Shown here piece after piece: positions 28,156 through 49,584 of a stretch of DNA of 64,000 nucleotides; the stretch's first letter is position 1; every line of letters starts with the position of its first letter. The translations under genes were made by a program, and so were the position numbers. This DNA comes from Asparagopsis taxiformis (lineage: Eukaryota > Rhodophyta > Florideophyceae > Bonnemaisoniales > Bonnemaisoniaceae): positions 34,894 to 98,893 of the forward strand of contig JALQPE010000582.1 in the NCBI GenBank assembly GCA_030407315.1, given 5' to 3'. Below the pieces are notes generated by a model that saw nothing but the letters and a program-made list of their open reading frames with translations, was not told the DNA's origin and searched no databases.

Positions 28156-28489
28156 AGTGATGAAGGGCATCTGTCCAGCCGTGTTGAAGCCTTAGTTGGG
28201 TATGAATCCGTAGAGTAATAAACACAATTCCAATAGAACATGATAAAAGAGATACTGCATGGATTCTTTATATAGTCAGATCAACTTCACAAATGTAACA
28301 AACACCACATGCAGAAAGCTATTCTCCACAGAAAGCTCTACCTACAGGAGCTGCAAATTCTAAACCTCTTCAGTAGATGCAAGAAACGATAGCAGATAGT
28401 AAAACCTGGTATTATATTACATCGTTCACTATCCCCGGTAAAATTTTCAGTTCCTGAGAACAGGAGTCTGGCCGGGTATAAAGTTGGGT

Positions 28490-29287: not shown

Positions 29288-32019
29288 ATGGCTCCTCGCA
29301 CTCGCTCCAAACCCTCTGCCCCGCCCCTGCTCGCGCTTCGACTCGCGGTCGGGCCCTCCGCGCGCTCTCTCGCCCCTTCTCGCAGCCCTGGTCACGATAA
29401 CTCTGTCACCGCCGAGGTTCAGTTGTCAGACTGTCCCAAAGCTGACCACAGGCTGTCTCCCTTGGATTTGCACAGACCCCCCCTATTCTCTCGTCATATT
29501 AGGGAAGGGAGAGTGCTTGAGCTGAAGGAGAAGTTCTTGAGGGAAGGATTCACCTCCTCAATCTCCCGAATCCTTGCCTGCAAAATGCTCCTTCCTAGTG
29601 AAGGCAGCACAACCCCCACCCTTCAAACGTTTTACATCGATGGTGGCCATCGCGTTGCGGCTCTCCAGAAGTGCATTCGTGAAGACCCGGAAGGGCAACA
29701 TCCGTATGCTGCTTCATTCAGGAACATCGATGTGGCTTTGATCAGGCGCCCAGGGACAGAAAGAAGTTTCCGATGAGTACTTCACACCTTTTGAAGTACT
29801 CGGGCTGTCCATTCAAGCAAACACACTCACACATGATGTTTGCCCTTGTTTCTTTGGCAGACCGAGTGTGTTCTGTGGTCCAACTGCTCACGACCAAGGA
29901 CATGCTGGGTGAACCGAATCGGAAGTGCATTCAGGTCATCATGGACAGCCAGTTGTCGATATCGAAACTGGGCTACCAAGCCATCAACAAGCACGTGACT
30001 GCTGCGAAAGGCTTCCGGACTGTGAACAACAAAGCGCTTGAGTTCTGGAGTTCCGTACCGAGCATGTTCACCAAGGAAATTCTCGCTGCGGAACAGGAAA
30101 GGGCCGTTAAAGAAGGCCGTGACATCAACGACGATGTCTTCAAGCAGTCCGTAGACATGTATGGCTGCAACATGGATCTCGTTTTCATGGCAGACTTCCG
30201 TCGCGGCTCGGAGTATCAGCAAAGGTTCATCTTGCTCATAACAGCTCTCTGGACACGCATGCGAGATCTGCGTCAGTTGAGTAGGACGACAAGAGGATTT
30301 GGTAATCCTTTCGTTCGTGTTTTGATTGAAGTGTTCAAGATGTCCGAGCCGGTTGCTGCTCACAAAATGATGGAGCCTCCGCTCGAGCATTTCTACTCCG
30401 AGCTCAAGAACACTGGGTCAGGAAAGGAGACTGTTATTGCGAACAGTATCGCTGAGACCCTCCTGCACTTCAATACCGACGAAAACAGCGGTACGAAGCA
30501 TGCTCCTCGTCTCCGACGAAATGTAATGAGCAGCTTCGCTTTTTCCCACGGGCGTTGTGGACATGGAGAAGACCAAAGGGTCATTGTTCACAATGAACAG
30601 CCATCTGAAGATGCGCCGAAGCCATCTACGCCCCAATCAGAGAGCCTTCTACCCCTTCTACCCGTTTTGGTCCTACTCCTCCTGCCCCTTCTACCCCTCC
30701 TGCTCCTTCTACCCCTCCTCCTCCTGCCACTTCCGTTCCTGCAGTTGAGCAGGCTCAAGGAACCCCTGATGCCACTGTGGCAGGTTCTGAGAAGCAATTG
30801 GGATCTGTTCTCCTCCGTCTCCCTCTCAATGCACCACCGCTTGCGGTGAATGAGCCAGTCGAGACACTTCGCAGTCGAAACGGCAGAGAACGGAGAGTTC
30901 ACGGGGTTGGCGACAATGAGGCAGAGTCGGAGGAAGAAGAGGAGAGCCCCTTCCGAAAGCGCAGAAGACTGGAAGCTAACCGTACGGTGAACGTTCAACC
31001 GAGGAGATTCCATTGTTCAGCGATGAGCAGGAAAATCCCCTCCCGACAGGGTAGTCGATGAACGGATTATGGATATTCTCCCGAACACCATACCGTCAGA
31101 CTCTAGGGTCAAGTACTATATCGACAGCAAGCTGTACGAAACAATCCGACAGGAGATTTTGAGTGCAGCTGCTGCCGATATGAATTGTATAGCGTGCAGT
31201 GGTCCAGCTTGCTGTGCAGAGAAGTTCTTTGCAACAGCTAGGTCAACTCTCAATCTCTTGGGTGCCCATGTACTCAGTGGTATCTTCCGTTCTTCGACTG
31301 TGGGCAACGCAGCACATGAACTGTTCACGTTCTACGCCCAGAAGTTCAAACCTGTTCATTCTTTTGCTGAAGACAGTTCCAATGATCCCTGGCATCAGAT
31401 TCGAAACAAGGGTGAGGTAACAGCAGAGCAACAGGCCTCTCGTTTGGGAAGGTTCTCTATCTCAAGGAAGAAGATTTGCGACGATCTCGAGCAGATGGAT
31501 GAACATCAATTCAAGAACAAGATGATTCTCGAGGTCGGCAAAGCAATCTGTGCCGAGCTAATGTACTTGGGCCTAGGACTCCATGAGCCTGTGGCCTTTC
31601 CTAAAACCGGTTTACGTCTTTTGCTGACCTCTGATGGTGCTCCAGATCAAGACTTGCACACAGACCTACCGGTGGTCATCAATGATTCCGATTTCCCACC
31701 TGGAAGATCGTACTTTCTGATGGCAAGCGCGGCTGATGGGTTCTGGCTTCGTGGAGCGTATTTCAGCCACGTCTGTTTGACGCGTGCAGACGCTGAGAAG
31801 TACAAGACGCCTGTTATGGACATCTACGTCCCACCGTATTCTCTCTTCATCGGTCGTGGTGACTTCTACCATGGAGGCAAAGGATTCAGTAGTTCACCGG
31901 AAAATCGCCTAACATATGGTCTTCCGGTTCGTTCTCATCTCTACCTTTTAAGTGACGAAGAAGAATTGGCGGATGCTATCGAAACAGTCAACTACTGGGA
32001 TGCACCTAGTGCGCGATAA
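29288..32019 (+). pseudogene. ParB/sulfiredoxin-like plus 2OG-Fe(II) oxygenase-like gene, third copy, frameshifted
   Basis: ATG 29288 gives an Arg/Pro/Ala-rich head and a ParB-like core with YIDGGHRVAALQKC (about 29634), ending at a TGA at 29774-29776. Family sequence continues in another frame (DEYFTPFEV, about 29769) and then in a third (SLADRVCSVVQLL, about 29850) up to about 30600. A Pro/Thr-rich linker changes frame again, giving the acidic and basic stretch 30777-31061. The oxygenase-like domain is one clean ORF, 31069-32019, with LHTDLP (H at 31657), SAADGFWLRGAYFSHVCL, and IGRGDFYHGGKGF (distal His at about 31870), then NRLTYGLPVRSHL. Base composition and similarity show it is closer to copy two than to copy one. 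Probably dead. Confidence 0.65.
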
Positions 32020-32339
32020 TCTGCAAGAATACTGCTTTGCCTCTCCCTCTACAGGCAGTATCTGCCAATCCTAAGCTAGCTTCGGTAGTATACTTCCTTT
32101 ACCACAACTAAATCTACTCCTATTCATGACTTTGAAAATATTAGCACGGTCAGTCTACTGCACTATTACAGTTCCTCTACCTCTCACCCCGCATAGCTTC
32201 TACACCCTACATCGTACAGACTGATCTCTTTCCTTTCCTACATGCATGGCACAGTTTTGCAAGACTGCCACAATTCCACATCACTCGAGTAACCAAGGTC
32301 TTGAATTGTTCTTCTTAGTATACTAACTATAGTTGAGAT

Positions 32340-32500
32340 GCAAACCTGGCAGCAATTCCATTGGCTGCCGCTGCGTTCATGACAGCCAATGGCAGAGCTG
32401 CACTTGGGCTGGCCACACCCAAAATAATACCGGTATTATTTTGGCATGGCAAAGCCCAGGTGCAGCACTATCATTGGGCGTGGGCTGACTGGCACCGCTC
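32340..32500. repeat. AATAATACC palindrome repeat with long inverted arms
   Basis: The centre, 32419-32444, is a perfect 26-bp palindrome (CCAAAATAATACC and its complement). Outside it, GCTGCACTTGGGCT on the left answers AGCCCAGGTGCAGC on the right, so the whole unit is a hairpin-forming element. It lies between two genes that converge. The rest of 32020-32616 shows no gene. Confidence 0.8.
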
Positions 32501-32616
32501 AGCAAATGAAAGTCTGTTATTATCGCTCAGGTAGATTGTAGTACTACAACGTTGTACGAGTTCAGATGCAAGACTTTTTATTGCTGATGGTACTCTTGAT
32601 ATCTGTAATTGGACGC

Positions 32617-34069
32617 CTAAACTGTCCTACTTCTCTGCAGTCCAGTAGCGCGATCCATAGTCAACGAATATCTCTTCCCAGCTCGAACATCTACTACAAC
32701 CTGCGCTAGGATGAGATCAGGTTTTGCTACTGCATACTTGAAGTCGCAAGTAGGATTGACGTCTTTGTGAACTCGGAACTCTGCATTTTTTCTGCGTTGC
32801 ACATTTGCAACGCTCTCCATTCCGTCAATGGTCCTACTGTCGTTGAGGTAGCTGCAGACATTGTATTCCGCTGGTACAAGATATATCTTGTCGACCGGTT
32901 CTTCTTCTCCGATGACACTGGTCTCCATCTCCATGTTGACGTTTTGGAATCTTTCACCAGTACAACCGAACCCGTCCGGTCCGTACAAGCGACTGCGTTG
33001 CGGTTCATTCTCCCCAATCTTCCCGTATAAAATTGTCCCATTATACCATCCAACAACAGAGCCCCTCTCTAAATCTTCTGCGGCAAAAACCCCCAATCCT
33101 CCCTCTCGAACTGTCGATGCAGCAACAATAACGTTGTGAAAGGAGGCATCTACTGCAAGCATCATCTCAGGGTCAACGGAGAAAACCTTGCCTAAATCTT
33201 CTACGCCCCATTCATTCATTGGGACTTCGGCAAGTCTTCGGAGCATGCTTTGATCCCGCGCAACAGAGGAGACAAATCGCAAACATATGCAGTGGTAGTG
33301 AAGATACCGACGGGAATCCATCAGGCGCATCACTTCGATGTCGAAGTCTTTCACTTCCTACATTGCTCCTTATCGAGTAATTCCATTCTTTGTTAGCGAG
33401 AATACTCGATATGTCATTTTTGGTTGCCTCCCCAAAAACTCCATCTCGACCTTGCCTAAAAAAGCAATCCAGCAACAACGGCTGAGCTGATCCATAGCAT
33501 TTGGCGTCTTTTTCACATCCAATAAACTTGCGATACAGACCATCTCTCATTGTCATGCAAGCTATTGCAGTAGAATACGTTCCGGAGAATAGATCTACCA
33601 CAATGTCTCCTGGCTTTGAAAACCTTGAAATAAGCTCTCGAAGTATGGACAGAGGCTTCTGCTCCGCACGTAGCCTTTTGTCTTCGAAGTTCAATGACTC
33701 ACCAGGTCCGAGCTTTGGGCAGTTGTCGATTGCGTTCACGTACCCTGGATGTCGTGAAAGGTCACGGTTATGCAAAGAATAATCAACCATTTCAAACGCG
33801 GCAGCTCCCATCCCACGTTTGAAACTGTGCACAACAAACTCGTGAATGTTGTGTAATGAACACGATTTGTTCATTGGGTTTTGGATGAATACGTAGGGAC
33901 GACGGCTTAGAATGAGAGGAACATCGTCTGTACGCATGGATTGTTCCCCGCTTTCTGCATTTTGAAGAGCTTCTCCCCACCCAACCAACTGTTTGATACA
34001 GGAAAATATCAGGGCATGTCCTCCAGGGCGCAGCATTCGAGAAATGTCCTTTCCAGTACGAAACATTTG
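32617..34069 (-). pseudogene. 3' part of the split ParB-DNA methyltransferase-SET gene
   Basis: Downstream half of a minus-strand gene cut by the gypsy element. It opens with a segment containing RMLRPGGHALIFSC, which follows motif IV in beta-class DNA methyltransferases. It then has the AdoMet-binding motif I, PGDIVVDLFSGTYSTAIAC (about 33565-33610), and KFIGCEKD. A frame change near 33355-33395 leads to a SET-like domain: GGLGVFAAEDLERGSVVGWYNG (about 33045-33115), NVCSYLND, and an NAEFRVHKDV...VVDVRAGKRYSL region ending near 32640. SET domains methylate lysines, mainly on histones. A DNA methyltransferase and SET domain in one chain is unusual. Convergent with the 29.3-32.0 kb gene. Confidence 0.7.
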
Positions 34070-34074
34070 TGCGC
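34070..34074. repeat. target site duplication of the gypsy element (left)
   Basis: TGCGC directly before the LTR's TGTGGAAC; the same five bases follow the other LTR at 44794-44798. Confidence 0.95.
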
Positions 34075-34733
34075 TGTGGAACAACGTTAGTTCTAGATAG
34101 CTGGTACGAGCTACGGACACGCTGTCCTTACGAAACGAAACGAGCAGTCCACCCGCTGGTGTTTGACTGTATTGTTAGAACGGTAGAAGGTAGAGTGGTT
34201 AGCGAGTAGACACGAGCGTCACGACGCAACAATCCACGCGAGGATTACGTTAGCGAACGAGGTGGTACGTCACCGGAGGCGCTCTCAACCAAGCCCGGAG
34301 GTACTACACGCAATCAGCCTTACGTGCGGCGATGGGTAGGGAGTACGCAGCTCGACGGAGACGAAGCCTCGCTAGGCAAAACGTAAACGTAAAACGTAGA
34401 AGTCAGTCGTAGACTAGAGCCGTTGCTCGATCGTTGTCTTGTCCCCTTTCCCTCCCGGCACGATGCCAATACCTATATGGCCACGATGGCATCGCTTTAC
34501 AGTGTAAACACTGCTCGTAACGTCCCCGAATGGGAAAGGACCTTGTGGGTCACACGTAGGGACCCGTTGGTCCGTTGGCCGTTGCCAATACGTTCGTTGC
34601 ACACGTGTGCCGGTTGCGCGCGCGCATGCGCCAGCAATGTTCGTGCATTGCTGTCGCCGGTCGTATCCGCCGAAATTCGAATTCCGCGGAAAACGTAAAT
34701 ATTTGCGATTTCGGACTCGCCACGTATACTACA
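34075..34733 (-). repeat. 3' LTR of the gypsy element
   Basis: 659 bp, TGTGGAAC...TATACTACA on the plus strand. It differs from the partner LTR at three seen sites. Confidence 0.97.
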
Positions 34734-34751
34734 CAGCCCCACCCCCACACG
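34734..34751 (-). other. polypurine tract
   Basis: On the coding strand GTGTGGGGGTGGGGCTG abuts the 3' LTR, as expected for the plus-strand primer site. Confidence 0.75.
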
Positions 34752-37103
34752 TGGACGTCCCGGCCACGCGAGGCCCGTCAGGACGCGCCTGAGACACGGG
34801 GCCGTGGCGCCTTTTCGGGTACAACTGCGGACGTGGCAGTTGTCCCGAAAAATCTCGTTTAAACGTACGCGGCCCGGTTGGCTGATCGAATCGCCACGGC
34901 GCCGGAGCGCGCGCGTGCGCTCCGGCTCTTTCGTAATCATCGCGGCCCGCCCGTTGGCGTCGTTCCGTGGTTAGTCGTAGGCCTCGTAGGCTCTAGCATC
35001 GTGTTGCTTCGTAAACTTCGTCTTGTTTCTTTGCGTAATCGCATGGCTCCGTTGAGCTTCGAAATACGTGTTGGCAGGTCGTCTGCAGCGGGGGAGGGGT
35101 AAGCGTTAAGCCCTTCCCCACAATTTTTTGTGGTGGCGTCTACCCCGTTGGGTGTCGTAGAGCTTACGCAGCTCGTCTTTCGCGTTCGCGACGGCGCGTG
35201 CCCGTTGGCAGGTTCGTAACACACGTAACTATTCGGCAAAGCGGCGGCGCGTAGCGGCGGCTTTTCACTGCGAGTGGTACGTTAACCTCGACCGTAGAGC
35301 CCGTTGGCGTGCGTATCATTTAGTAACTAACTCAGAAATCGTTTCCGCCGTCGTTTCTCGTCCGGATAACCCCGTCGGGTGTCGAATTTCGTTGAGCGTT
35401 CGAGCTCTTTAGCGCGTAGCACGTCGGTGCTAATTTTAATTTGCTCCGATGAGCTGGACGGAGAATTCGCCAAACGTCAGGCCGACTCGCGCGTGAGTTG
35501 GCTTGACGTTTCACGCCGTTGCGTGTACGCGGCAGTGCGTCGTGCGTCGCAGTTCCGTTGACAACGTCTTTGCCGGCGGGCTTGGCTTTTCGTATAGCCG
35601 TTAACACCGTTGGCGCCGTCGCGCTTCACGTTCCCGCGGCTTCACGTTAGCCGGTGGCGCAACCGTTGCGCTAGTCCGCTTCGCGTGGTGGCGTCGTTCG
35701 CCGCGGCGTCCAAGGAGCGTTTCGTTAGCTCATCCGTTATGTGGTGCGACGTGCACCTGGGCATACGTAATGCTCGCCCTCTACGCCGTTGCGTAATTTC
35801 GTTTATTCGACTTGCGAACCCGACGGGGACGCGATTGACGAAGTCGTTTCGCACGCCCGCGGGCGTTTGAGGCTGTTACGTGAGCCAGGTTCGTCGGCAG
35901 ACGTTGCCTTCAGCTGTGCCGTTTACGTTGGCTACCAGCTTGTACGCCGTCGCGTATTCGTATTTCGTTTCGTCCGTTCGACCCGTAGTGTACGTCGTTA
36001 TCGTTAGCGACGTCCGCGTACCTCGCTCGTCTCCTGGCCGACGTGGCCGGCGGCGCGTGCGCCTTCGAATGCGTACGAGGTTGAAGCTTCGTTAGCTTTT
36101 ACGGTTGCGACGCGGACGTGCGCGTCTTAGTCTTCGTGACCGTACGTGGTCTACCGGCCTTTCGGGTTTATTCGTGCGTTTCGACTAGCCGGCGGGCTTT
36201 TCGCTTTCGCGCGTCGTTCATTATGCCCGCGTGGCAGGACACCGTTGTGTCGTTTCGTGGTTGCCGTACGTGGCTACCGTGTTCGGCGTCGTGCCTCACG
36301 ATGGCGATTCGGTTCGCCGTCCGTCGTCGCGGCCTCGTTGGCTCGTCGTTCGCACGCTTTACTCGCGCGCTTCGTGCGCTGAGACCCGTTGGTCTAATTC
36401 GTCGGCTAACGTATAGCTTCGTTCCGCTTCGTGCGTGAAGTTTCGTAATGAGGCCGTTGCCATCTTCGTTGGGGACGCGTCCGTCCTACGTCGTTTCTCC
36501 GCCTTCCGGCGTCACGTTGCCGTTAGCTCGCGAGCTGTTGGCGTTGACCTCGTTGGTCGATGCGACTCGTTGTCAGCGGTTGTCCACGGGGACGTACGAT
36601 GGCTCACGTGACGTGCCAGAATTACGAAATTTTCGGGGCACGCGTGTCCCGAGATTTGGCCAGGTTAGCGCACTGTAATCGGCCCGATTTTTCGTACCGT
36701 GCGTCCATGGCCCGCTGGCCCAAGTATAATTTTTCGCGCGAAAAATCTGACGTGTTGTCCGTCCGTGGCCCGTGGTGTCGTCACCTTTGCCCGTGGGGCG
36801 GTCAACACTGTCGAGCCAGTCGTGGCTCTTCACATCGTGTGAATCGTCTGCGCGTGGACTCGTCGTCCAATCTTTCGTTGGCGCTCGTGCCTCCACCAAC
36901 GTATGGTGTCGAAAACGAAAAGAGCGACGGCTCTAGCACGCATCGCGCCCCCCCCAACGCAAGGGTGGACGTCCCGGCCACTCGTTGTGCCTTCGCTGCT
37001 CGTTCGTGCGGCTCGTCGCCTTCGTTTGTTGCATCGTGCGACGTCGCGCACGCGTGCGCTTAACCCGACGCTCGTGTGCGTTTTCGGGGGCCGTCGTGGC
37101 CTT
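34752..37103 (-). other. long 3' noncoding region of the gypsy element
   Basis: About 2.35 kb between the integrase/chromodomain stop and the polypurine tract. No minus-strand ORF of note; the plus-strand frames are Arg/Ser/Val-rich shadows of a CGT-rich composition. GGTGGACGTCCCGGCCAC occurs near both ends of it (about 34752 and 36965). Such spacers in plants may hold antisense genes or regulatory RNA; here nothing is recognised. Confidence 0.6.
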
Positions 37104-38375
37104 TCATGTTGTTGCTCGTCGCACGCGTGCGAAGTATCGAGAGACGCTCTCTTCAGATACGTTCCGGCGGGGCTCCCACGTAGGGTTACGATACCCGACC
37201 CACTTCACGAGGAAGTCTAGGGTGCCGTCATCGTTTACGCGATGGTTGAGTAGGTCGTCTACTACATACGCCGGACCGTCGCGGTTCTTGTCGAGGTCTG
37301 CCTCGGTGGCATCGTATGGCTCCGGCGGGGGCGCGTTCGCCGGCGTTGGCGCGTACGCAACGCGGTCCGAGTTGACACGTTCAACTACGTCTCCTCGTTG
37401 GATGACGAACGTTCGTACGTCGTTACGTAGTACGCGAAACGGTCCCAACGCGTGGTTGCCGAGCTTCGTGCCCTTCGTGGTCCCGTCCGTCGGGTCGATG
37501 AATACGTATTCTCCCGCGCGGATGTTTCGATTCGAGACACGGACTCGTTTGTCGAAATTTCGTTTATAACGTGCCTGCGCGGCCGTCAGCGTTCGATACG
37601 CGTTATCCATCGTTGTGGCGAGCTCACGCACGTAAGTGGCTCGCCCTCCCCCGTCGGGTAGTTCGCGGTTCGTTACCGACGTGTGTAGCGCCAACGGTGG
37701 CGGTGGATTCGTGAGAATCAAGTCGAAGGGCGTCGTGCCCGTGCTCGAATGCACATGCGTGTTGTACGCAAACGTTAACGCCGATGCGTATCGATCCCAG
37801 TCGTTCTGGTTTTCGTTCACGTAATTGCGCAGCATCGCCAGGATCGTCCTGTTGTAGCGCTCCACCTGCCCGTTCGTTTGGGGGTGGTACGTCGACGTAA
37901 AGACGTTCGTCACGCCGATTTCGTTGCAGACGCGCTGGAAAAACTTAGCAGCGAACTGCTTTCCGTTATCGCTTATGAGCGTCCGTGGGGGTCCATACGA
38001 GAAGACCCACGCGTTGACGAACGCGCTCGCCACGTTGGCGGAATCGATATTTCGTAGAGGTACGACTCTAGTCAGCTTCGTGAAGCGGTCCGTTATAACG
38101 AGAATAAATCGGTTGCCACGCGTGGTCTTCGTCAGCGGACCTAGTATGTCGATACATAGGTCTCGCAGCGGCTCCGTAGCCGGAAATAAACGTAACGGGT
38201 TCGTCCGTTTGCGAAGCTTCACGCGGTTCTTCGCACATCCAACGCAGTTTCGTACTGTTGCGTGGATGTCGGCGGCCATCGCGGGCCAGTAGTACGTCCT
38301 CCGTAGGGTATAGTACATACGCGTTTGTCCGGGATGTCCAGCGAGGACGTGGTGGTGCGTTAACTCCAGCAGCCG
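37104..38375 (-). CDS. gypsy integrase with C-terminal chromodomain
   Basis: The frame is open from about 38375 (first ATG at 38318). The zinc-binding HHCC module appears as ELTHHHVLAGHPG and CVGCAKNRVK. The catalytic Asp residues are in DILGPLTK and SDNGKQFAAKF, and the Glu is in GQVERYNRTILAM. The last 60 residues form a chromodomain, VVDDLLNHR...FLVKWVGY...TWEPRRNV, which in chromoviruses guides insertion to heterochromatin marks. Upstream, pol is in another frame (38360-38695), so one base is off near 38375. Confidence 0.9.
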   Translation of the reverse strand, partial: RLLELTHHHVLAGHPGQTRMYYTLRRTYYWPAMAADIHATVRNCVGCAKNRVKLRKRTNPLRLFPATEPLRDLCIDILGPLTKTTRGNRFILVITDRFTKLTRVVPLRNIDSANVASAFVNAWVFSYGPPRTLISDNGKQFAAKFFQRVCNEIGVTNVFTSTYHPQTNGQVERYNRTILAMLRNYVNENQNDWDRYASALTFAYNTHVHSSTGTTPFDLILTNPPPPLALHTSVTNRELPDGGGRATYVRELATTMDNAYRTLTAAQARYKRNFDKRVRVSNRNIRAGEYVFIDPTDGTTKGTKLGNHALGPFRVLRNDVRTFVIQRGDVVERVNSDRVAYAPTPANAPPPEPYDATEADLDKNRDGPAYVVDDLLNHRVNDDGTLDFLVKWVGYRNPTWEPRRNVSEESVSRYFARVRRATT

Positions 38376-38493
38376 CGGCCGTAACGAGCCGGCACAACGA
38401 TTTGTGTACGTTCCTCGTCGTGAGGGTTCCGGCGTCGGAGTAAGCCATCGTGGCCTTCGAAGAATGCAGCGTCCTGCGTCTCGGACTGTCGTG

Positions 38494-40521
38494 TCAGTAT
38501 CGTTTGACAGAACGCGTCCTCGCGTTGAGCTTCGATAAGCTCGTCCCTCGTAATGGGAAGCTGAACGTCAGCTGGTGGCACGCGTGCCGAATCGTCTTCA
38601 GCAGCGCGCTGTTCGTCGAGGAAATCCGGTTCCTCGTCAAGAACGTCATCGAGCGACGCGTCGCGGTTGAACTCGAGGCCATCGTGGCTAGCCATCGTGG
38701 CTGGTGTTGTTCGTCACGAGTCTCGTTCGACGGGTCGTCGTGACCCCCGGCATTCGTTGCCTTTTTACGTACGGACGTCGTTCGTCCTTGCCCGTTTCGT
38801 GTGGGTTGTCGACGACTGCGAGTCGTCACGAGGACCGCGTCCCCGTACGATGGTACGTCATCGTCAACGGGTCGACCGTCGTCATACGTAGATATCACAC
38901 GTGATAAAGCGTCAGGTACCTGGTGCACGCGCCCAGGCCTGTACGTAACTTCGAAATCGAATTCGGCAACGCGTAGCCTCCATCGTAGTAGTCGTCCGGA
39001 CGCGTCCGTCAACGTCATCAGCCAACGTAAGGCTTCGTGGTCCGTACGTACGGTGAACCGCTGACCCTCTACGTAGGGTCGGAGCGACGTTATCGCCCAG
39101 ACGACGGAGTAACACTCGCGCTCGGTCGCCGAGTAACCACGTTCGGTTTCGTTAAGGGTCTTCGACCAGTACCCAATCGGAACCCATTCGTTGGGCTTAT
39201 CTTCGTTCTGCTGCTGGAGCAACGTAGCTCCCAGCTGATACGCCGACGCGTCGGTATCGATCATGAACGGACGTCCCGCCTTCGGAAGGTGCAATACTGG
39301 TGGCGACACCAGTATTGTCTTCAACGTTTCGAACGCATTCGTTTGCGCGTCCGTTGGGTTCGTCCAATCGGGGGAAGCGTCCTTCTTCAACATCGTGTTG
39401 AGTGGCCGAGCGATCTCGGCATACGCCTTTACGAAACGGCGGTAAACGTTGGCCGCGCCCAAAAACGATCGACATTGCGTCTTGTCGCGTGGGAACGTAG
39501 CCGTACGAAAGGCTTCCTTGTTCCGAGCTGCGACGTGCAGCTTCCCTGGGGTGATCACGTGCCCCAGGTAGTCAACTCGTGGTTGAAAGAACGAGCACTT
39601 CGTGAGCTTTAACGTTACTCCCGCTGCGCGTAGCAGGGAAAGCACCTGGTCAACGTGACCCAGGTGAGACTCGAGGTCTTTCGAAAAGACGATTACGTCG
39701 TCTAAGTAGACAAGGCACGATTGCCAACGTACTCCGGAGAGGATTATGTCCAACGTCCGCTGAAACGTAGCGGGGGCATTTCGTAGCCCGAATGGCATTC
39801 GCACGTAGCGATACGTTCCCATGAAAGACGTAAACGTTGTCTTATCACGGTCCTCGGCGGAGACGGGCACTTGCCAGTAACCGGCGTTACAGTCGAGTGT
39901 CGTGAAGATGGCGGCGTCGCCAAGCGAATCGAGGCAATCTTCCATACGAGGAAGTGGATACGAATCAGCGATCGTTTTCGCGTTCAAACGCCTGTAGTCG
40001 ACACAGAAACGTAAGGATCCGTCCTTCTTCGGCACCAACACGATTGGTGACGCCCATTCGCTGGACGCGGGTTCGATAACCCCTTCGTTGAGCATCTTCG
40101 TGATCTGCTCCTCGGCTATCGTACGTAAAGCCGGACCCTGACGATAGGGCATTGAACGTATGGGCCGCGTGCCCGGTTCGAGTTCGATTCGATGCTCCGT
40201 AGCATTGATTTCGCCGAGGCGTCCGCTCGTCCACATTGACGAATGTGTCACTAGCATCTCGTTGATGCGCTTTCGTAAATCCTCGTCGTCGAGGTGCGAC
40301 AAATCGATTGTCGACTGCCAATCCGTGGCGGGGTCGTTCCCCTTTTCGTTGACCAACGGGTCTGGCGTTTCGTCGCCCAACCCGTTCGTATTTGCCCGCG
40401 TCGTCGCGTCGACTAGCGGTAGGTTCAAAACCTTCGCGAGGGCTTCGCCGCCCTCACGTTTGAGTGGGACGATTCCCAACGGGGAGCGTACCGCGTACGC
40501 AATCGTTGCGCCTTTCGGCAA
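38494..40521 (-). CDS. gypsy reverse transcriptase / RNase H
   Basis: ORF of 675 codons. RT domain: VPKKDGSLRFCVDYRRLN, the polymerase motif LVYLDDVIVFSK (about 39695-39720), and PRVDYLGHVI. RNase H: PFMIDTDASAYQLGATLL and VRTDHEALRWL. After the RNase H domain, the natural continuation toward integrase (DGLEFNRDASLDDV) lies in a different frame, 38360-38695, so the last 60 or so residues of this ORF are out of frame. The ORF's start overlaps the protease frame by 97 bp; PKGATIAYAVRSPLG is its first typical segment. Confidence 0.93.
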   Translation of the reverse strand: MPKGATIAYAVRSPLGIVPLKREGGEALAKVLNLPLVDATTRANTNGLGDETPDPLVNEKGNDPATDWQSTIDLSHLDDEDLRKRINEMLVTHSSMWTSGRLGEINATEHRIELEPGTRPIRSMPYRQGPALRTIAEEQITKMLNEGVIEPASSEWASPIVLVPKKDGSLRFCVDYRRLNAKTIADSYPLPRMEDCLDSLGDAAIFTTLDCNAGYWQVPVSAEDRDKTTFTSFMGTYRYVRMPFGLRNAPATFQRTLDIILSGVRWQSCLVYLDDVIVFSKDLESHLGHVDQVLSLLRAAGVTLKLTKCSFFQPRVDYLGHVITPGKLHVAARNKEAFRTATFPRDKTQCRSFLGAANVYRRFVKAYAEIARPLNTMLKKDASPDWTNPTDAQTNAFETLKTILVSPPVLHLPKAGRPFMIDTDASAYQLGATLLQQQNEDKPNEWVPIGYWSKTLNETERGYSATERECYSVVWAITSLRPYVEGQRFTVRTDHEALRWLMTLTDASGRLLRWRLRVAEFDFEVTYRPGRVHQVPDALSRVISTYDDGRPVDDDVPSYGDAVLVTTRSRRQPTRNGQGRTTSVRKKATNAGGHDDPSNETRDEQHQPRWLATMASSSTATRRSMTFLTRNRISSTNSALLKTIRHACHQLTFSFPLRGTSLSKLNARTRSVKRY

Positions 40522-41312
40522 TCGCGGTCCTTCTTCGTGAAGTTCGACACGATAATAGAGAACGTCTCTCTGGGTCCTACGTCGACCACTCCGTTGGCTA
40601 TACGAAGCCCATGCCGGAATTGCACCGACGCTTTCGGTTCGAGGAACACGAGTCCGGTCGCATCCGTCGTCACGTTGACGGTCCGTTGCGACATCGCCGG
40701 TACACGCGTGTACTTCGTCAGGCGAACCGAAAACGTTCGGCTCGGCCGATTCGAGGCCGCGTTACGCTCGCGGCGCTTCGGGTGTTCCACGTTTGGATTC
40801 GTTTCCCCTTCCTCCTCGTACGGAGTTTTCGTATCGCCCTCCGCGATAATGGGTATCGTATCCCCTCGATGGAGGTCGATTGTCTGCGCTCGACAGCGTA
40901 TAGCATCGACATGCTTCGACATGAACGACGTGCCCATTATGACGGGAACAGCCAGCGTGTTGGCTACGAAGAATTTTACGCGGAACAGCGAGTTCCCCAA
41001 CCTGACACGAAGCAGGATGGCGCCTTCGATAGGCAAACGTCGCCCGTTGGCGTCTCCGAGCTTCGGTAGCTCTTCGTCACGTAGACAGCGGTCGACCCAG
41101 TCGTAGGGTAGTAAACTTGTTCGTATCAAGTTGTAGCCGCTGCACGTATCCATCGCGATGGTAATCGCCCTCATCACGTTGAGGTCTAGTCCGATCGTTC
41201 CGGATACGATATAATGCTTCGACGCAAGTAGGCACGTATGCCCGTCGAGGACCAACGGTTCGGTCCTGACCGGCGCGCGGTCTACGTCTTCGCTAGCGAT
41301 TCGTCGCTTCAC
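40425..41312 (-). CDS. gypsy aspartic protease region
   Basis: Frame of 295 codons with the retroviral-type protease motif as IAMDTCSGYNLI (about 41125-41165; DTC in place of the usual D-S/T-G) and the distal PVIMGTSFM segment. It lies between gag and RT and overlaps the RT frame, so a frameshift or read-through is needed to join pol. Confidence 0.7.
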   Translation of the reverse strand: MKRRIASEDVDRAPVRTEPLVLDGHTCLLASKHYIVSGTIGLDLNVMRAITIAMDTCSGYNLIRTSLLPYDWVDRCLRDEELPKLGDANGRRLPIEGAILLRVRLGNSLFRVKFFVANTLAVPVIMGTSFMSKHVDAIRCRAQTIDLHRGDTIPIIAEGDTKTPYEEEGETNPNVEHPKRRERNAASNRPSRTFSVRLTKYTRVPAMSQRTVNVTTDATGLVFLEPKASVQFRHGLRIANGVVDVGPRETFSIIVSNFTKKDRDCRKAQRLRTRYAPRWESSHSNVRAAKPSRRF

Positions 41313-41627
41313 CGTATGAGCCCGTATGGCTTCTTTTGCGTCGACACGCTTCGTATAAGCCGCGTGCTTGGCTTTCTCGCGCTCGGAAGCGTCGTGCTTC
41401 CGGGTAGCGCGTCTCGCTCGTCTGCGAGGCTTCCTCTTCGTGTGAGGTTCGTTCGTCCCGTCGGACTTCGTTTCCCCCCACGTCGGGTGTCGTGTGACTC
41501 GAGTTGGCCTTCGCGGCCGTGAGCTTTACGTAACTCTCGTTCATCGGTGAGCCTGCGGAGGACCAATCATCGACGTCGGTCGTCCCCCTTTCACGTAAGG
41601 GTTCAGGCGATGTGGGTGGCTCGTGAC

Positions 41628-44030
41628 CTACATCGCCTGGTCGTTTTCCGGCGCGGGGCCGTTCGACACGTCGTCGTCGTGAGCCCACGAAGCTCGTTCG
41701 TCATCGTGACTCGTTTCCACCTCGAGTGGTGTTTCGTCAGCGGAGGTCGTCACGTAGACTCCGCTGCGGCCATTACGCTGGCCATTTCGTTCGTTCGCCC
41801 ACGGGCGGGGGTCACGTCGGTCATTACGAAAGTCGCCGCGGCGCCTGTCGAAGGGCCTTCCCCCGTCACGATTGGGGTTTCGGAGTATCGTAGGCGGCGT
41901 GCCGTACCTCCGCGGGGTCACGTTCCCTCGCTCAGCAGGTCGTTCCTGGTTACGTTTGGCCATTCGTTGGCGGAAGTACTCAGCCTGACGTGGGTTGCTC
42001 TTCACGTGGAAGAGGTAGTACTTGTACGCGAAAAAGATCCGTTGATCTGGCGTCAGACGCGGACACGTAAACGTCGAGTGGCCATCTTCGCGGCATGACC
42101 AACACGACAGCGTCCAGTAATCATTCGGGATTACGGAGTGCGCCAATTGCGTCTGCTCGCTCGTGAGCTTCGGCACGTCCTCGCATGGACGGTTCAATCG
42201 AGCTTCGAGCTCGTCCGGCTTTTCGTTTGCCGTTTTCGTATCGTTGGGCGGCGGCCCGTTCGTGAAGAGGATCGCCTCCAAGTTCTCGGCAACGTGAGCC
42301 GCAGCGAGCGACACGTCGTCATCATCCCTCGCGGGGATGTTCGGGTTACCATCGTGGTAACTGGGCTCGCTAGCCCGTTCATTACGTAAGTACGCGGACT
42401 CATCGTAGTCCGCGAACTTCCTCGACTCGTGGTCGGAAATAGCCAACGTAGGCTTCACCGGAAACCGCACTTTCGGTTTCGCGGCTGACGCGACAGCTGC
42501 CGTACGTGCACGGAAGGTCGTTCCTTCGGCCGTCGCCAATCGTCTCACAACGGTGAGGTCGTTCCTCTCTCGTTCGGGGAGTGACCGGAGTCGTTCCGTC
42601 ACGGCTGCCCGCGTCGAGGGCAGCAAACCACGTACGTAGTGGTGAACGAGGAGTCGATCCGTAAACACGTAGTTGCACGCCCGCGTGGCGGTGTCGAGTC
42701 TATCAGCGTACTGATTCTCGTCCTCGTTAGGACTCTGCGTGATCATCGTGACCTTTTCGTAGGCCTCCTGCAGCACGTCGTCTTGCAGGTATCGTTTGAT
42801 CAACGCGTTGATCACGTGAGGCCACGAGAACCTCTTCGTCGGATCAGTCGTGATCACACCAGTCGTACACTGGGAATCGTAGAACCGTCGGGCGTCCCCT
42901 TCGAGGAAGAAGTGCAGCGCACGTACTGCCACTCCCTCGCACACTCCGAGTGTGCTGAACCCATCACGTATTTGGGCGAGGAATCCGAGTAACGTAATCG
43001 GATTCCGGCCGGAGAACGGCTTTAACGTAGGGAAAAGTCCCTCCAGCTCACGTTTGAGCTTATGTACGCTTTGACTCTCGTTCACGTAGAGATGTTCACG
43101 TACATCGTTAAGTCGGTACATGCGGTACGACACCACGTTCGCAAATGCGTCGAGCATTGTCGTGTGCTCTGCCAACGCGTGGCAAACGGGTCCGAGGGCG
43201 TTCCCTGGTAAGCGTACCGCGTCGGCACGTTCGTTTTCGTGGACTCGCGTGTCCGTCGTGCCGAACGTTCCCAGCCACGGAATGTACGTCTCACGTGGCG
43301 GGGGAGCTCTCGTATCGAATTGCGCAGCTCGTGCTGCGTCCGCCGACCGCGCGTGGTCTGGCGTGTCGTTAAAACGTAATTGCCTTCGTGGCGTCTCGTT
43401 GGGGTTGGCGATGGCTCGTTGCACTGTCGCCCCCCTTCCGTACGTGGTCGGGGTCGTCGGACCGGGTGTTGGTGGGTATCCTCCCGGAACGGCCGGGGAG
43501 GATTGCGAGTTATAGGCGCGCGAGCCTTCGTAATTCGGATCGCTTCCGCTCGGCGGAGCGGAACGTCCGGCGACGATTTCGTTGAATACTACGACAAACG
43601 AGTCGAGTCTTCCCTCCACGGCGGAGAGGCGGTTTCGTAAATCTTCGTTTTCCCGTTCGAGGGTCGCTGAGCGTTCACGTAACGCACGAGCTTCGCGCTC
43701 CGAGACTCCGAGTCTCTGCCTTACGGCTTCGTCGACGGCCGCGTCGCTCGCCCTTTCGATGTGACCTCGAAGGTCTTCGTACACTACGCGTAGTGCCGTG
43801 GGAGTCACGTTCCCTTCGTTGAGCTGACCGCGCGTTGCGGGGTCCATACTCACGGACTCAAACGGGCTTACCGTACGTGGTAGCTGGCCGATCGCCTCGA
43901 TATCCGGCGGGATAGATCGATCAGTCGCGAAGATCGCTTCTGCTGACAAGGCCACGTCGGCTTCGGCGTCCGCTGACGTTGGCAACGGTTGCCTGGGCGA
44001 CGCGCTGGAATTCGACACAGCGTAATTCAT
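41628..44030 (-). CDS. gypsy Gag with zinc knuckle
   Basis: Start chosen at ATG 44030; the frame is open to 44084 without an earlier ATG. Central helical segment with FSGRNPITLLGFLAQIRDGF and a long Gag-like domain. One zinc knuckle, CWSCREDGHSTFTC (about 42065-42105), fits C-x2-C-x4-H-x4-C. An Arg-rich tail follows. A coiled coil sits at about residues 120-190 (REARALRERSATLERENEDL). Forms the virus-like particle. Confidence 0.9.
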   Translation of the reverse strand: MNYAVSNSSASPRQPLPTSADAEADVALSAEAIFATDRSIPPDIEAIGQLPRTVSPFESVSMDPATRGQLNEGNVTPTALRVVYEDLRGHIERASDAAVDEAVRQRLGVSEREARALRERSATLERENEDLRNRLSAVEGRLDSFVVVFNEIVAGRSAPPSGSDPNYEGSRAYNSQSSPAVPGGYPPTPGPTTPTTYGRGATVQRAIANPNETPRRQLRFNDTPDHARSADAARAAQFDTRAPPPRETYIPWLGTFGTTDTRVHENERADAVRLPGNALGPVCHALAEHTTMLDAFANVVSYRMYRLNDVREHLYVNESQSVHKLKRELEGLFPTLKPFSGRNPITLLGFLAQIRDGFSTLGVCEGVAVRALHFFLEGDARRFYDSQCTTGVITTDPTKRFSWPHVINALIKRYLQDDVLQEAYEKVTMITQSPNEDENQYADRLDTATRACNYVFTDRLLVHHYVRGLLPSTRAAVTERLRSLPERERNDLTVVRRLATAEGTTFRARTAAVASAAKPKVRFPVKPTLAISDHESRKFADYDESAYLRNERASEPSYHDGNPNIPARDDDDVSLAAAHVAENLEAILFTNGPPPNDTKTANEKPDELEARLNRPCEDVPKLTSEQTQLAHSVIPNDYWTLSCWSCREDGHSTFTCPRLTPDQRIFFAYKYYLFHVKSNPRQAEYFRQRMAKRNQERPAERGNVTPRRYGTPPTILRNPNRDGGRPFDRRRGDFRNDRRDPRPWANERNGQRNGRSGVYVTTSADETPLEVETSHDDERASWAHDDDVSNGPAPENDQAM

Positions 44031-44120
44031 AGACCGTCGTCTGTAGCGTAGCACGTAGCTTTTCGTTAACGTAAAAGAGCTCAACCTCGTTGGTTGTCGT
44101 TATGCTCGTAGCAACTTCTA

Positions 44121-44134
44121 GGTCGAGAGACCAG
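44121..44134 (-). other. candidate primer binding site of the gypsy element
   Basis: Just inside the 5' LTR, the coding strand reads C then TGGTCTCTCGACC. The TGG start is as expected for pairing with a tRNA's CCA end; I could not name the tRNA. Confidence 0.5.
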
Positions 44135-44793
44135 TGTGGAACAACGTTAGTTCTAGATAGCTGGTACGAGCTACGGACACGCTGTCCTTACGAAACGAAA
44201 CGAGCAGTCCACCCGCTGGTGTTTGACTGTATTGTTAGAACGGTAGAAGGTAGAGTGGTTAGCGAGTAGACACGAGCGTCACGACGCAACAATCCACGCG
44301 AGGATTACGTTAGCGAACGAGGTGGTACGTCACCGGAGGCGCTCTCAACCAAGCCCGGAGGCACTACACGCAATCAGCCTTACGTGCGGCGATGGGTAGG
44401 GAGTACGCAGCTCGACGGAGACGAAGCCTCGCTAGGCAAAACGTAAACGTAAAACGTAGAAGTCAGTCGTAGACTAGAGCCGTTGCTCGATCGTTGTATT
44501 GTCCCCTTTCCCTCCCGGCACGATGCCAATACCTATATGGCCACGATGGCATCGCTTTACAGTGTAAACACTGCTCGTAACGTCCCCGAATGGGAAAGGA
44601 CCTTGTGGGTCACACGTAGGGACCCGTTGGTCCGTTGGCCGTTGCCAATACGTTCGTTGCACACGTGTGCCGGTTGCGCGCGCGCATGCGCCAGCAATGT
44701 TCGTGCATTGCTGTCGCCGGTCGTATCCGCCGAAATTCGAATTCCGCGGAAAACGTAAATATTTGCGATTTCGGACTTGCCACGTATACTACA
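44135..44793 (-). repeat. 5' LTR of the gypsy element
   Basis: 659 bp, nearly identical to 34075-34733. Confidence 0.97.
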
Positions 44794-44798
44794 TGCGC
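44794..44798. repeat. target site duplication of the gypsy element (right)
   Basis: TGCGC, matching 34070-34074. Confidence 0.95.
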
Positions 44799-46859
44799 TA
44801 TTGATGTCATCATAGTCTGAATTGGTCTTGCCTTTCTCCCTCCGCGTGTTGAAGGGTGGATCGGTGAGCACAAGTTGTGCTTGTCCATCAATAGTATTCC
44901 CTGAAAGCATGCCAATGGAATCAGTGTTAACCTGGTGCACTAACCTCGAGGCTGTACAGTTGTAAGCCACGCAAAATCTCTTCATGACCTTTTTCAATTG
45001 CACAATATGATCCGGTACCCCCTCTTCCTCACCCACTGCCTCCGCTGACGGTGTATCCTCCGCAACATCTTGCATAACCGTGTCCATTGCGGACGAAGCC
45101 CTCCCATCCATGCTGGATTTATACTGGGATCCAGAGTCATTGGTAGGTTTCCTTCCACCTGTACCTAAACGGCGAGTGCTGTGCTGCATTGATTCATTCG
45201 ACTCAAGACGATCTCTTTCTCGAGAAAGAGATCTGGATGCTGCGTTGCGCTGTTCAGTCTCGTAGAGAATTTTCAAGTCGGAGACATCAACTGGCTTCAC
45301 ACGCATTTCACGGTTCCAGTTCTTCCATACCTTGAGTCTTTCGTGACCATCCAATGCGATGGATTGTTCAATTCTTGCTTCGATGAAGGCGTTCAATCCG
45401 AACCGGTCAGGCTGATGGAAAATTTAGTGCGCAGCCCTTCCATCTGGTTCGTACTTGATCCGAATACATCAATGCCTATCATACAGTCATACACAGACAC
45501 TAGTACGGCTTCTGTCAAAGACCTCAACCTTGCATCAACAGAGATATCCAAAGTGCCTGGATAACCTGCATTCTCGCGGAGTTTCACTACCGGGGACGGA
45601 AGCAGAAGATCTGAGTAGTGGTCAGGATGTGCCCACCCGTCAGTACGATTAGCAAAACAGATGAATTGGAATTTCTCAGAGTCGAAAACCATGTATGGGC
45701 GACATATCATGTAGGCGCTTTCGAAGCCCAGAATCATCGCTGTTGTATCCCAGGCAGACATGACCCTTTCCAAAACGACACCCACAGACTCTCCGTTTGC
45801 TCTTGTGCGCTGGAAAGGGGCGAATGTAGAAGTCTCTGTATCCCTCCCAGTTCTACGACGCTTCCTACCCCGGCGAATGGGTGCATTTCTGCGTCTAGTG
45901 AGGGCAATGTGCACAAATGAAATCATAAACATCAGCCTTCCAAATACTTTGTCTTCTTCTGTTAATGTTCTACCCTGTGCACTTCTTCCAGAACGAAAAT
46001 ACTCACAGGTGAGGACTTCGCGACACAATGGAGAAGCAATTTCACCACTTGTAGACATCCCAAACAACTGCTCGCCGACTGATGCTCTTTTCTCGAGAGA
46101 TGTGGGAAACTCCTTCATCGCAAAATTGTTCTGAACTTCCACCGGCCTTCCCCATACAATACAGAACAACTGCCACAGACAGCGAACCATTTTGGGATTG
46201 GGTTCTTCTATGCGACTGTAGGGGCGAAGCACACGAAGAATTGACAAGCAACTCTCGTACTGTGGCTGCCTCAGCACAGTTTCTGCCAAATATTCGCGCT
46301 GAGATCCCACGGCGAGCCATCGCCTAATGGATGGCATATTCACGTCGCGAATTGTAACCATGCTTGAGCTTCCTTGTTTTTCACCTGCGTTTCGCTCCCA
46401 GTACCCATCTCTAAGATCCAAAGTAAGATTCAGGTACTCAATGAAAGTCATCCTCTTCTGCCTGGATGCCATATCGTTCGCGTTTGATGCTTTCACACTA
46501 TCTAGAAGGAAAGCAGCACTTGTAATCGGAGATATGTCGACTTCTTCTTCAATCATAGGAACAGTGAAATCACGCGGAAGCTCACCGTTCTCTATGAGCT
46601 TGATTACAGCTTTCGAACGATGCGCACCATCCAGCACCTCTACCTCACCGGCAATGATCCGACCGGTAATTGGGTTGTTGTCATTGTGGCCGTAAACCTG
46701 AATGCTCTCGGCAATAACATCGACGTGCCTGTAGTCGATTTCTCGAATCTCGACATATCTTTTGATCTTGAATGGGTCGATGTGCAATAGCCCATTGCGC
46801 CGCTCACCATGAAGGGGACGCCCAGAGGTGCTCGCTGTATTTCTCTTCTCAGAGGCCAT
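44799..46859 (-). pseudogene. 5' part of the split ParB-DNA methyltransferase-SET gene
   Basis: ATG at 46857-46859. Residues about 30-110 form a ParB/sulfiredoxin-like domain (IREIDYRHVDVIAESIQVYG, EVLDGAHRSKAVIKL). A helical region with a basic patch (RRGRKRRRTGRD) runs to 45393, where the frame shifts by one base (TGA at 45393-45395; family sequence resumes as NAFIEARIEQ). After a Ser/Arg-rich linker comes the methyltransferase catalytic motif IV, VLTDPPFNTRR (about 44841-44875). Motif IV before motif I is the beta-class order of N6-adenine/N4-cytosine DNA methyltransferases. The gypsy LTR begins right after the DDINSA codons. ParB domains fused to such methyltransferases are known from phages and bacteria, so an ancient transfer is likely. 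Confidence 0.75.
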
Positions 46860-47101
46860 CGAGAAATAGATTCTTCACCTCAATCAGCCACCAGCAGAAA
46901 ACAATCTTCTCTCCTACCTGCTGTTAAAAACCTTCGGCAACGATCTTGATAAACCTTAAATGCACAGTTAAAGAGTTAACCTGAATATTTTCAGGTATAC
47001 TTTGGCTAGGTAGGGTACGTAATGAGGAATAATTAGGTTCTTCGGCGGCCTTTCAATACAATTATTTCGCCAACGGACATTTCCATTTTTGTTTTGAATT
47101 T

Positions 47102-47173
47102 GAAGTCCCCTCGAGAGATTGAGTTTGAAATCTGCCATCGGAGATTTCAAAACCAATCTCTTGAGAGGACTTC
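47102..47173. repeat. hairpin-forming inverted repeat, 32-bp arms
   Basis: Arms GAAGTCCCCTCGAGAGATT... and ...AATCTCTTGAGAGGACTTC with about four mismatches and an 8-base loop GCCATCGG. It lies in the divergent gap 46860-47590 between the ParB-methyltransferase gene and the 47591 gene; may be a small inverted-repeat element or a regulatory hairpin. Confidence 0.75.
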
Positions 47174-47465
47174 ATCTTCTGTTCGAACTTGTAGACTCGT
47201 TCTTACAACCAGTATATAAATATACATATTGATTTCACTGCATCATTCTCGATCCCTGCGTCTCTTTATACATACACGTCTAGGTTCCGTTATATTGCCA
47301 CAGCGAAAAATACACCCAATCTACTGGTAATGGCTTCGAGCAGCTCGGAATAAGATCTTTATTATATGGTGATGAATGTTGAAGAGAGATGATCATCACG
47401 ATGTTGGTCTCCCATGTCGCTTGGGACAGGTGTTAGTAATTTATAACCGTTACGAGTTATGCAAG

Positions 47466-47473
47466 TATAAAAA
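47466..47473 (+). promoter_or_regulatory. TATA box of the 47591 gene
   Basis: TATAAAAA about 120 bp upstream of the ATG. A second TATATAAA lies farther up at about 47213. Confidence 0.5.
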
Positions 47474-47590
47474 TAGTAACCTACCAATTTTCTCTCTATC
47501 ATTCCACACGGATACAAGCTGTACAGTTTCGTCATCTTTCCTGTTTCCTCAGTCGATACCTCTTCCATTCTTTTCCTGGGAATACCCATT

Positions 47591-48979: not shown

Positions 48980-49089
48980 AACGTTTTCTATCTTTTCTAG
49001 ATGGGTCTACAAGACTGTTCAGAGTTAGTCAACCTCGATTAAGTCGATGGTATCCATCGATACATGCTCCGTATCTTTCTGGCCTGTTC

Positions 49090-49275
49090 CTTCGTCCAGG
49101 GACTGTCTGCATTCTGTAACAATGATTGCCCTCCACTTGGCAAAATATCCCTGAAAATAATACCGGGTATTATTCTTAGGTTTCGTCCAGGGATCGCCTG
49201 TAGCCGGTACGAATGATTGCCCTCCACTTGGCAAAATATTCCTCAAAATAATACCCGGTATTATTTTCCGCACTA
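49090..49275. repeat. two tandem units with the AATAATACC palindrome
   Basis: Two roughly 90-bp units: TCCAGGGA...GATTGCCCTCCACTTGGCAAAATAT...AAAATAATACC. Palindromes are at 49154-49174 and 49245-49267 (the second with centre CCCGG). The unit's outer sequence differs from that at 28.5 kb, but the palindrome core is the same. It sits between two converging genes; the rest of 48980-49584 shows nothing. Confidence 0.8.
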
Positions 49276-49584
49276 CTCTGCCAGGTGGAGCTACGGCATT
49301 GGATGGGACTGCACAGGCCCCGAAGCTACTAGAGGCGTGCTCAATGACAGGGTAAAACTCTTAACCGTAGTAGACATGACGCTTTCTAGTCGCAGAGTGA
49401 GCTGAAAAATAAGAACGATAGCTATTGTTTCCAGTACACCATGTAGTACGTAGCATGCTGCGGTGCACCTTTTCCACGCACATCCTAGACAGTTTCACAT
49501 CTAAAGGTTTTTATTTCTCTTAAGTCTCTCGTAGTAGTCGGTTCCCTTCAAAGGCTATGAAACTTTACTTCTACGCTTCCATTA

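Follow-up and report, generated by a model that had tools for sequence, protein, structure and literature searches.

A ParB-like, DNA methyltransferase and SET fusion gene carried by a high-copy CACTA-like transposon in the red alga Asparagopsis taxiformis

We analysed a 64,000-nucleotide stretch of the Asparagopsis taxiformis genome (contig JALQPE010000582.1, positions 34,894 to 98,893; hereafter the window), in which the original prediction had recognised a single host gene, encoding a ParB-like domain, a beta-class DNA methyltransferase and a SET domain, that had been destroyed by insertion of a gypsy element. The three-domain fusion is real, but it is not a host gene: it is cargo of a high-copy CACTA-like DNA transposon with near-identical copies, and the gypsy element struck a single transposon copy that was already frame-shifted. 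We regard the identity of the fusion gene and its mobility as nearly certain. As the best overall explanation of these observations we favour, with moderate confidence, a transposon that may carry its own epigenetic kit.

The fusion gene lies on the minus strand of the window, where the list of open reading frames (ORFs) shows it as four open-frame pieces (45393-46874, 44557-45423, 33212-34174 and 32617-33357) that encode, in this order, a ParB-like N-terminus, a beta-class N6_N4 methyltransferase and a SET part. The methyltransferase was detected by Pfam on the window's own piece (N6_N4_Mtase, E 2.2e-10), and SET remained under the Pfam cut-off on the broken piece (E 0.041). On the intact fusion protein (L011, 1169 amino acids (aa) counted from the ATG) both exceeded their cut-offs, N6_N4_Mtase (PF01555) at residues 662-879 with E 1.2e-13 and SET (PF00856) at residues 1013-1161 with E 2.2e-5; when the SET part of the intact copy was searched alone, the match (E 6.8e-7) spanned model positions 1-105, which is the whole model. 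The PF01555 match was accompanied by a DPPY/F motif preceding FxGT, as in the beta class, and a three-family profile searched against the PDB retrieved DpnA, CcrM, RsrI and N4-cytosine methyltransferases (best 1.4e-16). The ParB-like part was matched by the phage family PHROG 1033 at L011 residues 38-131 (E 6.3e-5), and its DGxHR motif is common to three other ParB-like ORFs of the window. Thus the hidden Markov model check proposed with the original prediction gave significant methyltransferase and SET matches on an intact copy, with ParB recovered through PHROG and not through Pfam, and the domains were found joined in one protein, not always as separate genes.

We searched the genome from which the window comes (141.5 Mb in 3156 contigs) with the 493 N-terminal amino acids of the fusion, and 87 copies scored out of 1304 first-look candidates, the window included, were 98-100% identical. 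Counted from the match table, 58 of these 87 lie in a stop-free frame of exactly 1174 aa, and 29 lack that exact frame. Ten further copies, picked from those with the full frame, were fetched, and the fusion ORF was free of indels in all ten, one of which aligned across 3519 of 3522 bases. The window element is continuous with the copies in C718, C1579 and others, and the element starts at an identical base (CACTAC) in the window and in nine fetched copies, and the flanking bases differ in all ten of these; the tenth fetched copy begins at its contig end and is uninformative for the left end. The flanks of C718 and C9 both belong to a single other repeat, into which the two copies are inserted at different points and in opposite orientations. 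On the right, the window matches C629, C1894 and C812 as far as position 17955, beyond which those three go on and the window diverges; the family search assigned no family to the sequence that truncates the window transposon there. The complete element in C1579 extends from 20163 to 44647 (24,485 bp) and ends in ...CAGTAGTG followed by T, an end that is identical in C629 and C1894. Its terminal inverted repeats, CACTACTGAGTTTGAGAT and CACTACTGTGTCTGAAAT, are identical at 15 of 18 positions and have the form CACTA..TAGTG. In the genome, the 80-nt left end gave 40 scored matches at 98-100% identity out of 304 candidates, and the right end 40 out of 340, all at 100%. Taken alone, the window does suggest a host gene disrupted by a gypsy element, but the high copy number, the common precise ends and the different flanks rule this reading out, and we rejected it with virtually no probability left to it.

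The complete element in C1579 encodes ORFs of 509 and 499 aa, the 1174-aa fusion, two ParB-like/oxygenase-like proteins of 1006 and 1184 aa, and, in a transposase-like region, two ORFs of 399 and 847 aa. The transposase-like ORF (P0001) had no direct Pfam match, and none of the 38 PF02992 places in the genome is on C1579. By BLASTP, P0001 aligned (E 2e-4) with the protein encoded at window positions 2-1855, which is a Transposase_21/Tnp2 protein (PF02992, 9.3e-16), and the alignment covers the Tnp2 segment that includes GDxPAV...PCxxC. The CMCT clade (EnSpm, Plavaka and others; PMC12730594) is marked by CA..TG ends, by C(2)C and H(3-4)H in the transposase and by a target site duplication of 2-5 bp. 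The element has such ends, and in P0001 C(2)C occurs at residue 234 and H(3-4)H at residues 265 and 542, motifs that also arise by chance. The CACTA marker DUF4218 gave three weak matches in the genome, none over the cut-off and none on C1579. GTAGTG is followed by T in all eight right ends that were read, and the base preceding the left CACTAC is variable, so the element may in truth extend one base further on the right than taken here.

We also considered whether the block might be an endogenous virus or a phage-derived island. The best PHROG match of the methyltransferase domain is a phage family (phrog_67, 2e-23), a likeness to phage DNA methyltransferases, among which ParB-methyltransferase fusions occur, and one distant phage match was found at 22.6% identity. 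To our knowledge, neither SET nor a eukaryotic transposon context has been described for phages. Pattern-based scans of viral contigs, which miss distant relatives, confirmed no relative of the fusion, the fusion alignment, the oxygenase alignment or the transposase-like ORF; the element has CACTA-type ends and a Tnp2-like ORF, and no capsid or replication genes were noticed among the ORFs of C1579. With relatives in viral contigs unconfirmed, a viral origin was rejected as very improbable. Among prokaryotes, the fusion alignment gave 54 pattern matches, of which none was confirmed.

Methyltransferase motifs IV and I of the window copy are indeed parted by a gypsy element, as had been claimed, with one motif on each side. 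The element (34075-44793, 10,719 bp) has long terminal repeats (LTRs) of 659 bp each that differ by three mismatches, a 5-bp target site duplication (TSD), TGCGC, at 34070-34074 and 44794-44798, and ORFs for reverse transcriptase (RVT_1), RNase H, integrase and chromo domains, all over Pfam cut-offs. Other copies of the fusion gene in the same genome run uninterrupted across the insertion point. It had further been claimed that removal of the gypsy element and one TGCGC would place the gene in one frame. This held for the stretch around the insertion, but not for the whole gene, because the window copy has three further single-base frame changes, near 45.4, 33.3 and 32.7 kb. The first of these was probably inherited, given that in the C1711 and C1851 copies the same residues lie in a 493-aa frame, as they do in the window copy.

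The transposon's two ParB-like companion genes and a third ORF of the window (11471-14635) share the N-terminal DGxHR motif, and the C-terminal motif H(T/N)D...H...R is present in all three of these divergent paralogues. As we take HxD...H...R to be the signature of 2-oxoglutarate and Fe(II)-dependent (2OG-Fe(II)) oxygenases, the two companion genes probably encode such enzymes. Among the other companions, the 509-aa ORF had a ratio of nonsynonymous to synonymous polymorphism (pN/pS) of 0.088 (11 variant codons in nine of ten copies, one with an indel being left out), and the 499-aa ORF had a pN/pS of 0.34 (12 variant codons, ten copies).

Four of the seven non-coding regions of the C1579 element carry short tandem arrays, with units of about 91, 114, 116 and 105 bp, and the core common to the arrays is the palindrome AATAATACCSGGTATTATT, which in the fourth array has an imperfect arm. 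Array 2 ranges from 2.6 to 33.8 units in the nine copies where a number was reported; the 33.8 units of its 114-bp repeat are those of C718 (L009-L010), and the eight other measured copies have 2.6 to 10.8. All 26 of the 12-mers present in at least three non-coding regions derive from the palindrome (some with one flanking base), and no 12-mer is common to at least three ORFs of the C1579 element. Genome-wide there are 2333 exact sites, against none for the reversed control. In the ten fetched stretches, to which the mapping of sites to elements applies, 113 of 115 exact sites lie past the element start and the other two lie in a second, inverted element copy. Ten 3.6-kb stretches that surround other methyltransferase genes (several being near-identical) lack the palindrome, but so do three 4.5-kb stretches of the fusion family, and because of the latter the comparison with other methyltransferase families decides nothing.

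Control of transposition by methylation of element ends is known from Dam and IS10 and from Spm TnpA, and the methyltransferase could similarly serve the transposition cycle here, the methylation state of the ends controlling transposase binding or cutting, with SET and ParB as accessory parts. One element holds both a methyltransferase and a transposase-like ORF, and subterminal ACTGCC/GGCAGT repeats are concentrated at the two ends of the C1579 copy (18.6 per kb on the left and 8.5 on the right, versus 0.4 in the middle). The palindromes, however, are internal, with none in either terminal region of that copy, and SET and the two oxygenase-like genes would be left unexplained, so that we consider this alternative unlikely.

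Related proteins are abundant elsewhere in the genome. N6_N4_Mtase gave 150 scored matches out of 2605 first-look candidates, all 150 over the cut-off and in frames of several lengths, and DGxHR, TDPP and F(S/A)GT are kept across three families, two of which are 24% and 19% identical to the first. SET gave 150 scored matches out of 1661 candidates. Ten of them, at 50-101 bits, resemble host genes; the other 140, at 33-36 bits, are repeat-like, and many of these sit in frames of close to 1084 or 1154 aa. Eight places pair a methyltransferase match with a SET match on the same strand at a distance of 402-403 bp, and at six of these (C23, C67, C178, C266, C279 and C1862) the open-frame length is the same, so the methyltransferase-SET fusion exists in at least one further family. 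In another ParB-methyltransferase family (L041) SET is replaced by a cysteine- and histidine-rich C-terminus that is finger-like by eye and has no Pfam match. The families suggest that C-terminal modules may be exchanged among ParB-methyltransferases. No candidate C5 DNA methyltransferase (PF00145) was found in the genome, with the control search positive in 10 of 14 genomes; this absence is provisional, as the search reads single exons and the assembly may lack sequence. In the genome of A. taxiformis L6, DNA transposons were reported to make up 33.48%, and a figure legend in the available text of the same report places DNA methyltransferases, both site-specific and adenine-specific ones, on the contig that carries the mbb gene cluster (PMC12115072). 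In the genome examined here, a PAP2 search gave 12 matches and revealed no haloperoxidase cluster.

Alternatively, the arrays could be neutral satellite repeats and the cargo a passive or decaying load, in which case the fusion would have no present function. Consistent with this, the repeat number of array 2 varies more than tenfold, the window copy has its three frame changes besides the gypsy insertion, a third of the scored copies lack the exact full frame, and constraint among copies is not measurable. On the other hand, the remaining scored copies keep that frame, the palindrome is the only 12-mer word in at least three non-coding regions, and a second family has kept a methyltransferase with SET. 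We give this alternative only a small share of probability, somewhat below that of a role in the transposition cycle.

In the explanation that we prefer, that of an epigenetic kit, the palindrome in the four intergenic arrays would be bound by the ParB-like N-terminal parts of three proteins, the methyltransferase-SET fusion and the two oxygenase-like ones. The methyltransferase would write N6-methyladenine (6mA) or N4-methylcytosine (4mC) on element DNA, the SET part would modify a histone or another local protein, and the oxygenase-like proteins would remove or alter the marks. The net result would be an element-specific chromatin state that permits expression and movement of the element in a host for which a C5 DNA methyltransferase was not detected. 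We infer DNA amino-methylation, protein methylation and oxidation from the domain families, and catalytic DNA methylation by the fusion protein seems likely. A precedent for the proposed targeting is VANC of the VANDAL transposons, an anti-silencing protein whose binding sites, according to the available text, form variable tandem repeats in non-coding parts of the transposon (PMC5735166). The likeness would lie in a transposon protein that acts on its own copies through short tandem-repeat motifs in non-coding regions, although the candidate proteins here are enzymes of other kinds. Judged from this precedent and from the layout of the arrays, targeting of the enzymes through the palindromes is possible, at slightly less than an even chance. 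A pro-element, anti-silencing direction, toward which we lean because every enzyme in the model is element-encoded, is more tentative still. The most far-reaching version, in which one chain would bind an element-specific palindrome array and write a DNA mark (6mA or 4mC) as well as a histone-type one, ParB-linked oxygenases would edit these marks, and the genome would have lost C5 methylation so that transposons own its DNA methylation, we think improbable.

Several observations weigh against the kit or against details of it. Among the ten full-frame copies the fusion ORF varies in just seven codons (two synonymous and five nonsynonymous changes), and selection between copies cannot be demonstrated from copies that were chosen for their full frame and differ so little. 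The ParB-like part had no Pfam match on the intact fusion protein, and its AlphaFold model was poor (predicted local distance difference test score (pLDDT) 46), with no significant structure match. Most SET domains have the catalytic motif NHSC; the SET part here has GxG and GEEIFVDYG, but NDSR sits at the NHSC place, and its activity is therefore uncertain. The assignment of the oxygenase-like proteins is motif-based, with no informative Pfam, NCBIfam, PHROG or PDB sequence match, and the AlphaFold model of the oxygenase part was too poor to use (pLDDT 32); a TET/JBP identity was rejected, since Tet_JBP (PF12851) had no candidate in the genome, and at least one copy (C1572) has a split oxygenase gene 1. 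The 11-bp palindrome core occurs at 13 sites in the element versus 0.01 expected in shuffles, but because shuffles ignore tandem duplication the evidence consists of the four arrays and not of the 13 sites; these arrays are not all independent either, given that arrays 2 and 3 are alike in inverted orientation (about 72-76%). Finally, a 3-bp TSD was absent from all five complete copies (C1579, C337, C75, C2295 and C1984), two of which (C337 and C2295) had a 2-bp flank match; the pair in C464 was excluded from this count, as its left end was missed and the pair was unreadable. For want of a 3-bp TSD in the paired copies we call the carrier CACTA-like and do not file it as EnSpm.

Parts of this arrangement resemble systems that have been described, which we compare here on the portions of the cited papers that were available. 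In bdelloid rotifers, animals without canonical C5 methyltransferases, N4CMT joins an N6_N4_Mtase-family enzyme to a chromodomain (PMC8885841). Both cases combine a bacterial-type, permuted N6_N4_Mtase (PF01555) with a chromatin domain in a eukaryote without canonical C5 methyltransferases (here, without detected ones), but N4CMT is encoded by a host gene and has a chromodomain that reads histones, whereas the fusion described here is transposon cargo with a SET domain of histone-writing type and a ParB-like N-terminus. Fungal EnSpm, Plavaka and KDZ transposons carry TET/JBP oxygenases (PMC12730594), and they share with our element CA..TG ends and an oxygenase for DNA modification (putative here); in the available text no methyltransferase fusion is described for them, and the oxygenase-like genes here differ by their ParB-like N-terminus and by a genome with no Tet_JBP candidate. 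The introduction of the same paper states that the HarbingerS and MuDR families of DNA transposons carry SET genes, so a SET domain on a mobile element is not new in itself; these are other superfamilies, for which the portion available mentions no fusion to a DNA methyltransferase (PMC12730594). Retrotransposons are known that carry DNMT or Dam-like enzymes (PMC5890265), and they resemble our element in bearing DNA methyltransferases in many copies; they differ in being retrotransposons with C5 DNMT or Dam-like enzymes, and the term 'SET domain' has no occurrence in that paper.

Transposons with epigenetic enzymes as such are therefore known, but we found no described example of the combination. 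In the open-licence literature searched (SET, ParB or DNA methyltransferases on transposons, and red-algal adenine methyltransferases), no title or abstract start among the papers listed described the fusion, and the earlier statement that no example was known stands uncontradicted within that literature. Where known transposons carry one epigenetic enzyme, a fused DNA- and histone-type writer together with probable oxygenases and palindromic arrays of the element's own would open element-encoded epigenetic control to direct tests. Should the host indeed lack C5 methylation, it would be a natural setting in which to ask whether mobile elements write 6mA or 4mC that can act as a silencing or anti-silencing mark of the genome.

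Table 1. Features of the transposon copy in the window (positions count from the first base of the window)
Feature	Position	Strand	Basis or remark
Window copy of CACTA-like transposon	17955..51800	-	left end 51800; right end truncated at 17955
Left terminal inverted repeat, starts CACTAC	51783..51800	-	40 scored of 304 candidates for 80-nt end
ORF of 509 aa	49585..51114	-	no Pfam match over cut-off
Palindrome array 1, sites 49160 and 49251	49089..49263	.	limits approximate, converted from C1579
ORF of 499 aa	47480..48979	+	window ORF list
Fusion gene, ParB-like N-terminal part with DGAHR motif	46416..46859	-	PHROG 1033 on intact copy; open frame 45393-46874
Fusion gene, linker and methyltransferase motif IV (TDPPF)	44799..45423	-	ORF list, Pfam, alignment
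Gypsy element inside methyltransferase domain	34075..44793	-	LTRs 34075-34733 and 44135-44793; TSD TGCGC; Pfam domains
Fusion gene, methyltransferase S-adenosylmethionine (AdoMet) part (VVDLFSGT)	33284..34074	-	N6_N4_Mtase 2.2e-10; open frame 33212-34174
Fusion gene, SET part	32617..33357	-	SET 0.041 on window piece; 2.2e-5 and 6.8e-7 on intact copy
Palindrome array 2 remnant, 114-bp repeat	32427..32437	.	repeat and site searches
ParB-like / probable 2OG-Fe(II) oxygenase gene 1	29201..32019	+	frame-broken in window; 1006-aa frame in C1579; split in C1572
Palindrome array 3, 116-bp units	28545..28832	.	repeat and site searches
ParB-like / probable 2OG-Fe(II) oxygenase gene 2	24909..27961	+	frame-broken in window; 1184-aa frame in C1579
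Palindrome array 4 remnant	24332..24342	.	site searches
Divergent Tnp2-like transposase region	20440..24032	+	ORFs 20440-21198 and 21879-24032; BLASTP of C1579 homologue
Insert of about 776 bp in window copy	19655..20429	.	absent from C629, C1894, C812
Part of right subterminal region	17955..19654	.	comparison with other copies; ACTGCC/GGCAGT dense at both C1579 ends

Outside the features of Table 1, the left end of the window transposon adjoins a copia-type integrase ORF (51786-53027, with gag_pre-integrs and rve domains), and the transposon looks as if it were lodged within a copia copy. The canonical Tnp2 transposase at 2-1855 (minus strand, PF02992) has a 1071-aa frame in C582 and likewise in C609, and the 1054-aa ParB-like/oxygenase-like ORF at 11471-14635 (plus strand) lies about 10 kb from it; the two are possibly part of a second CACTA-type element with similar cargo. 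At 60763-62577, the minus strand encodes a 604-aa protein with nine Ephrin_rec_like cysteine-rich repeats, which is probably a secreted or surface protein of the host.

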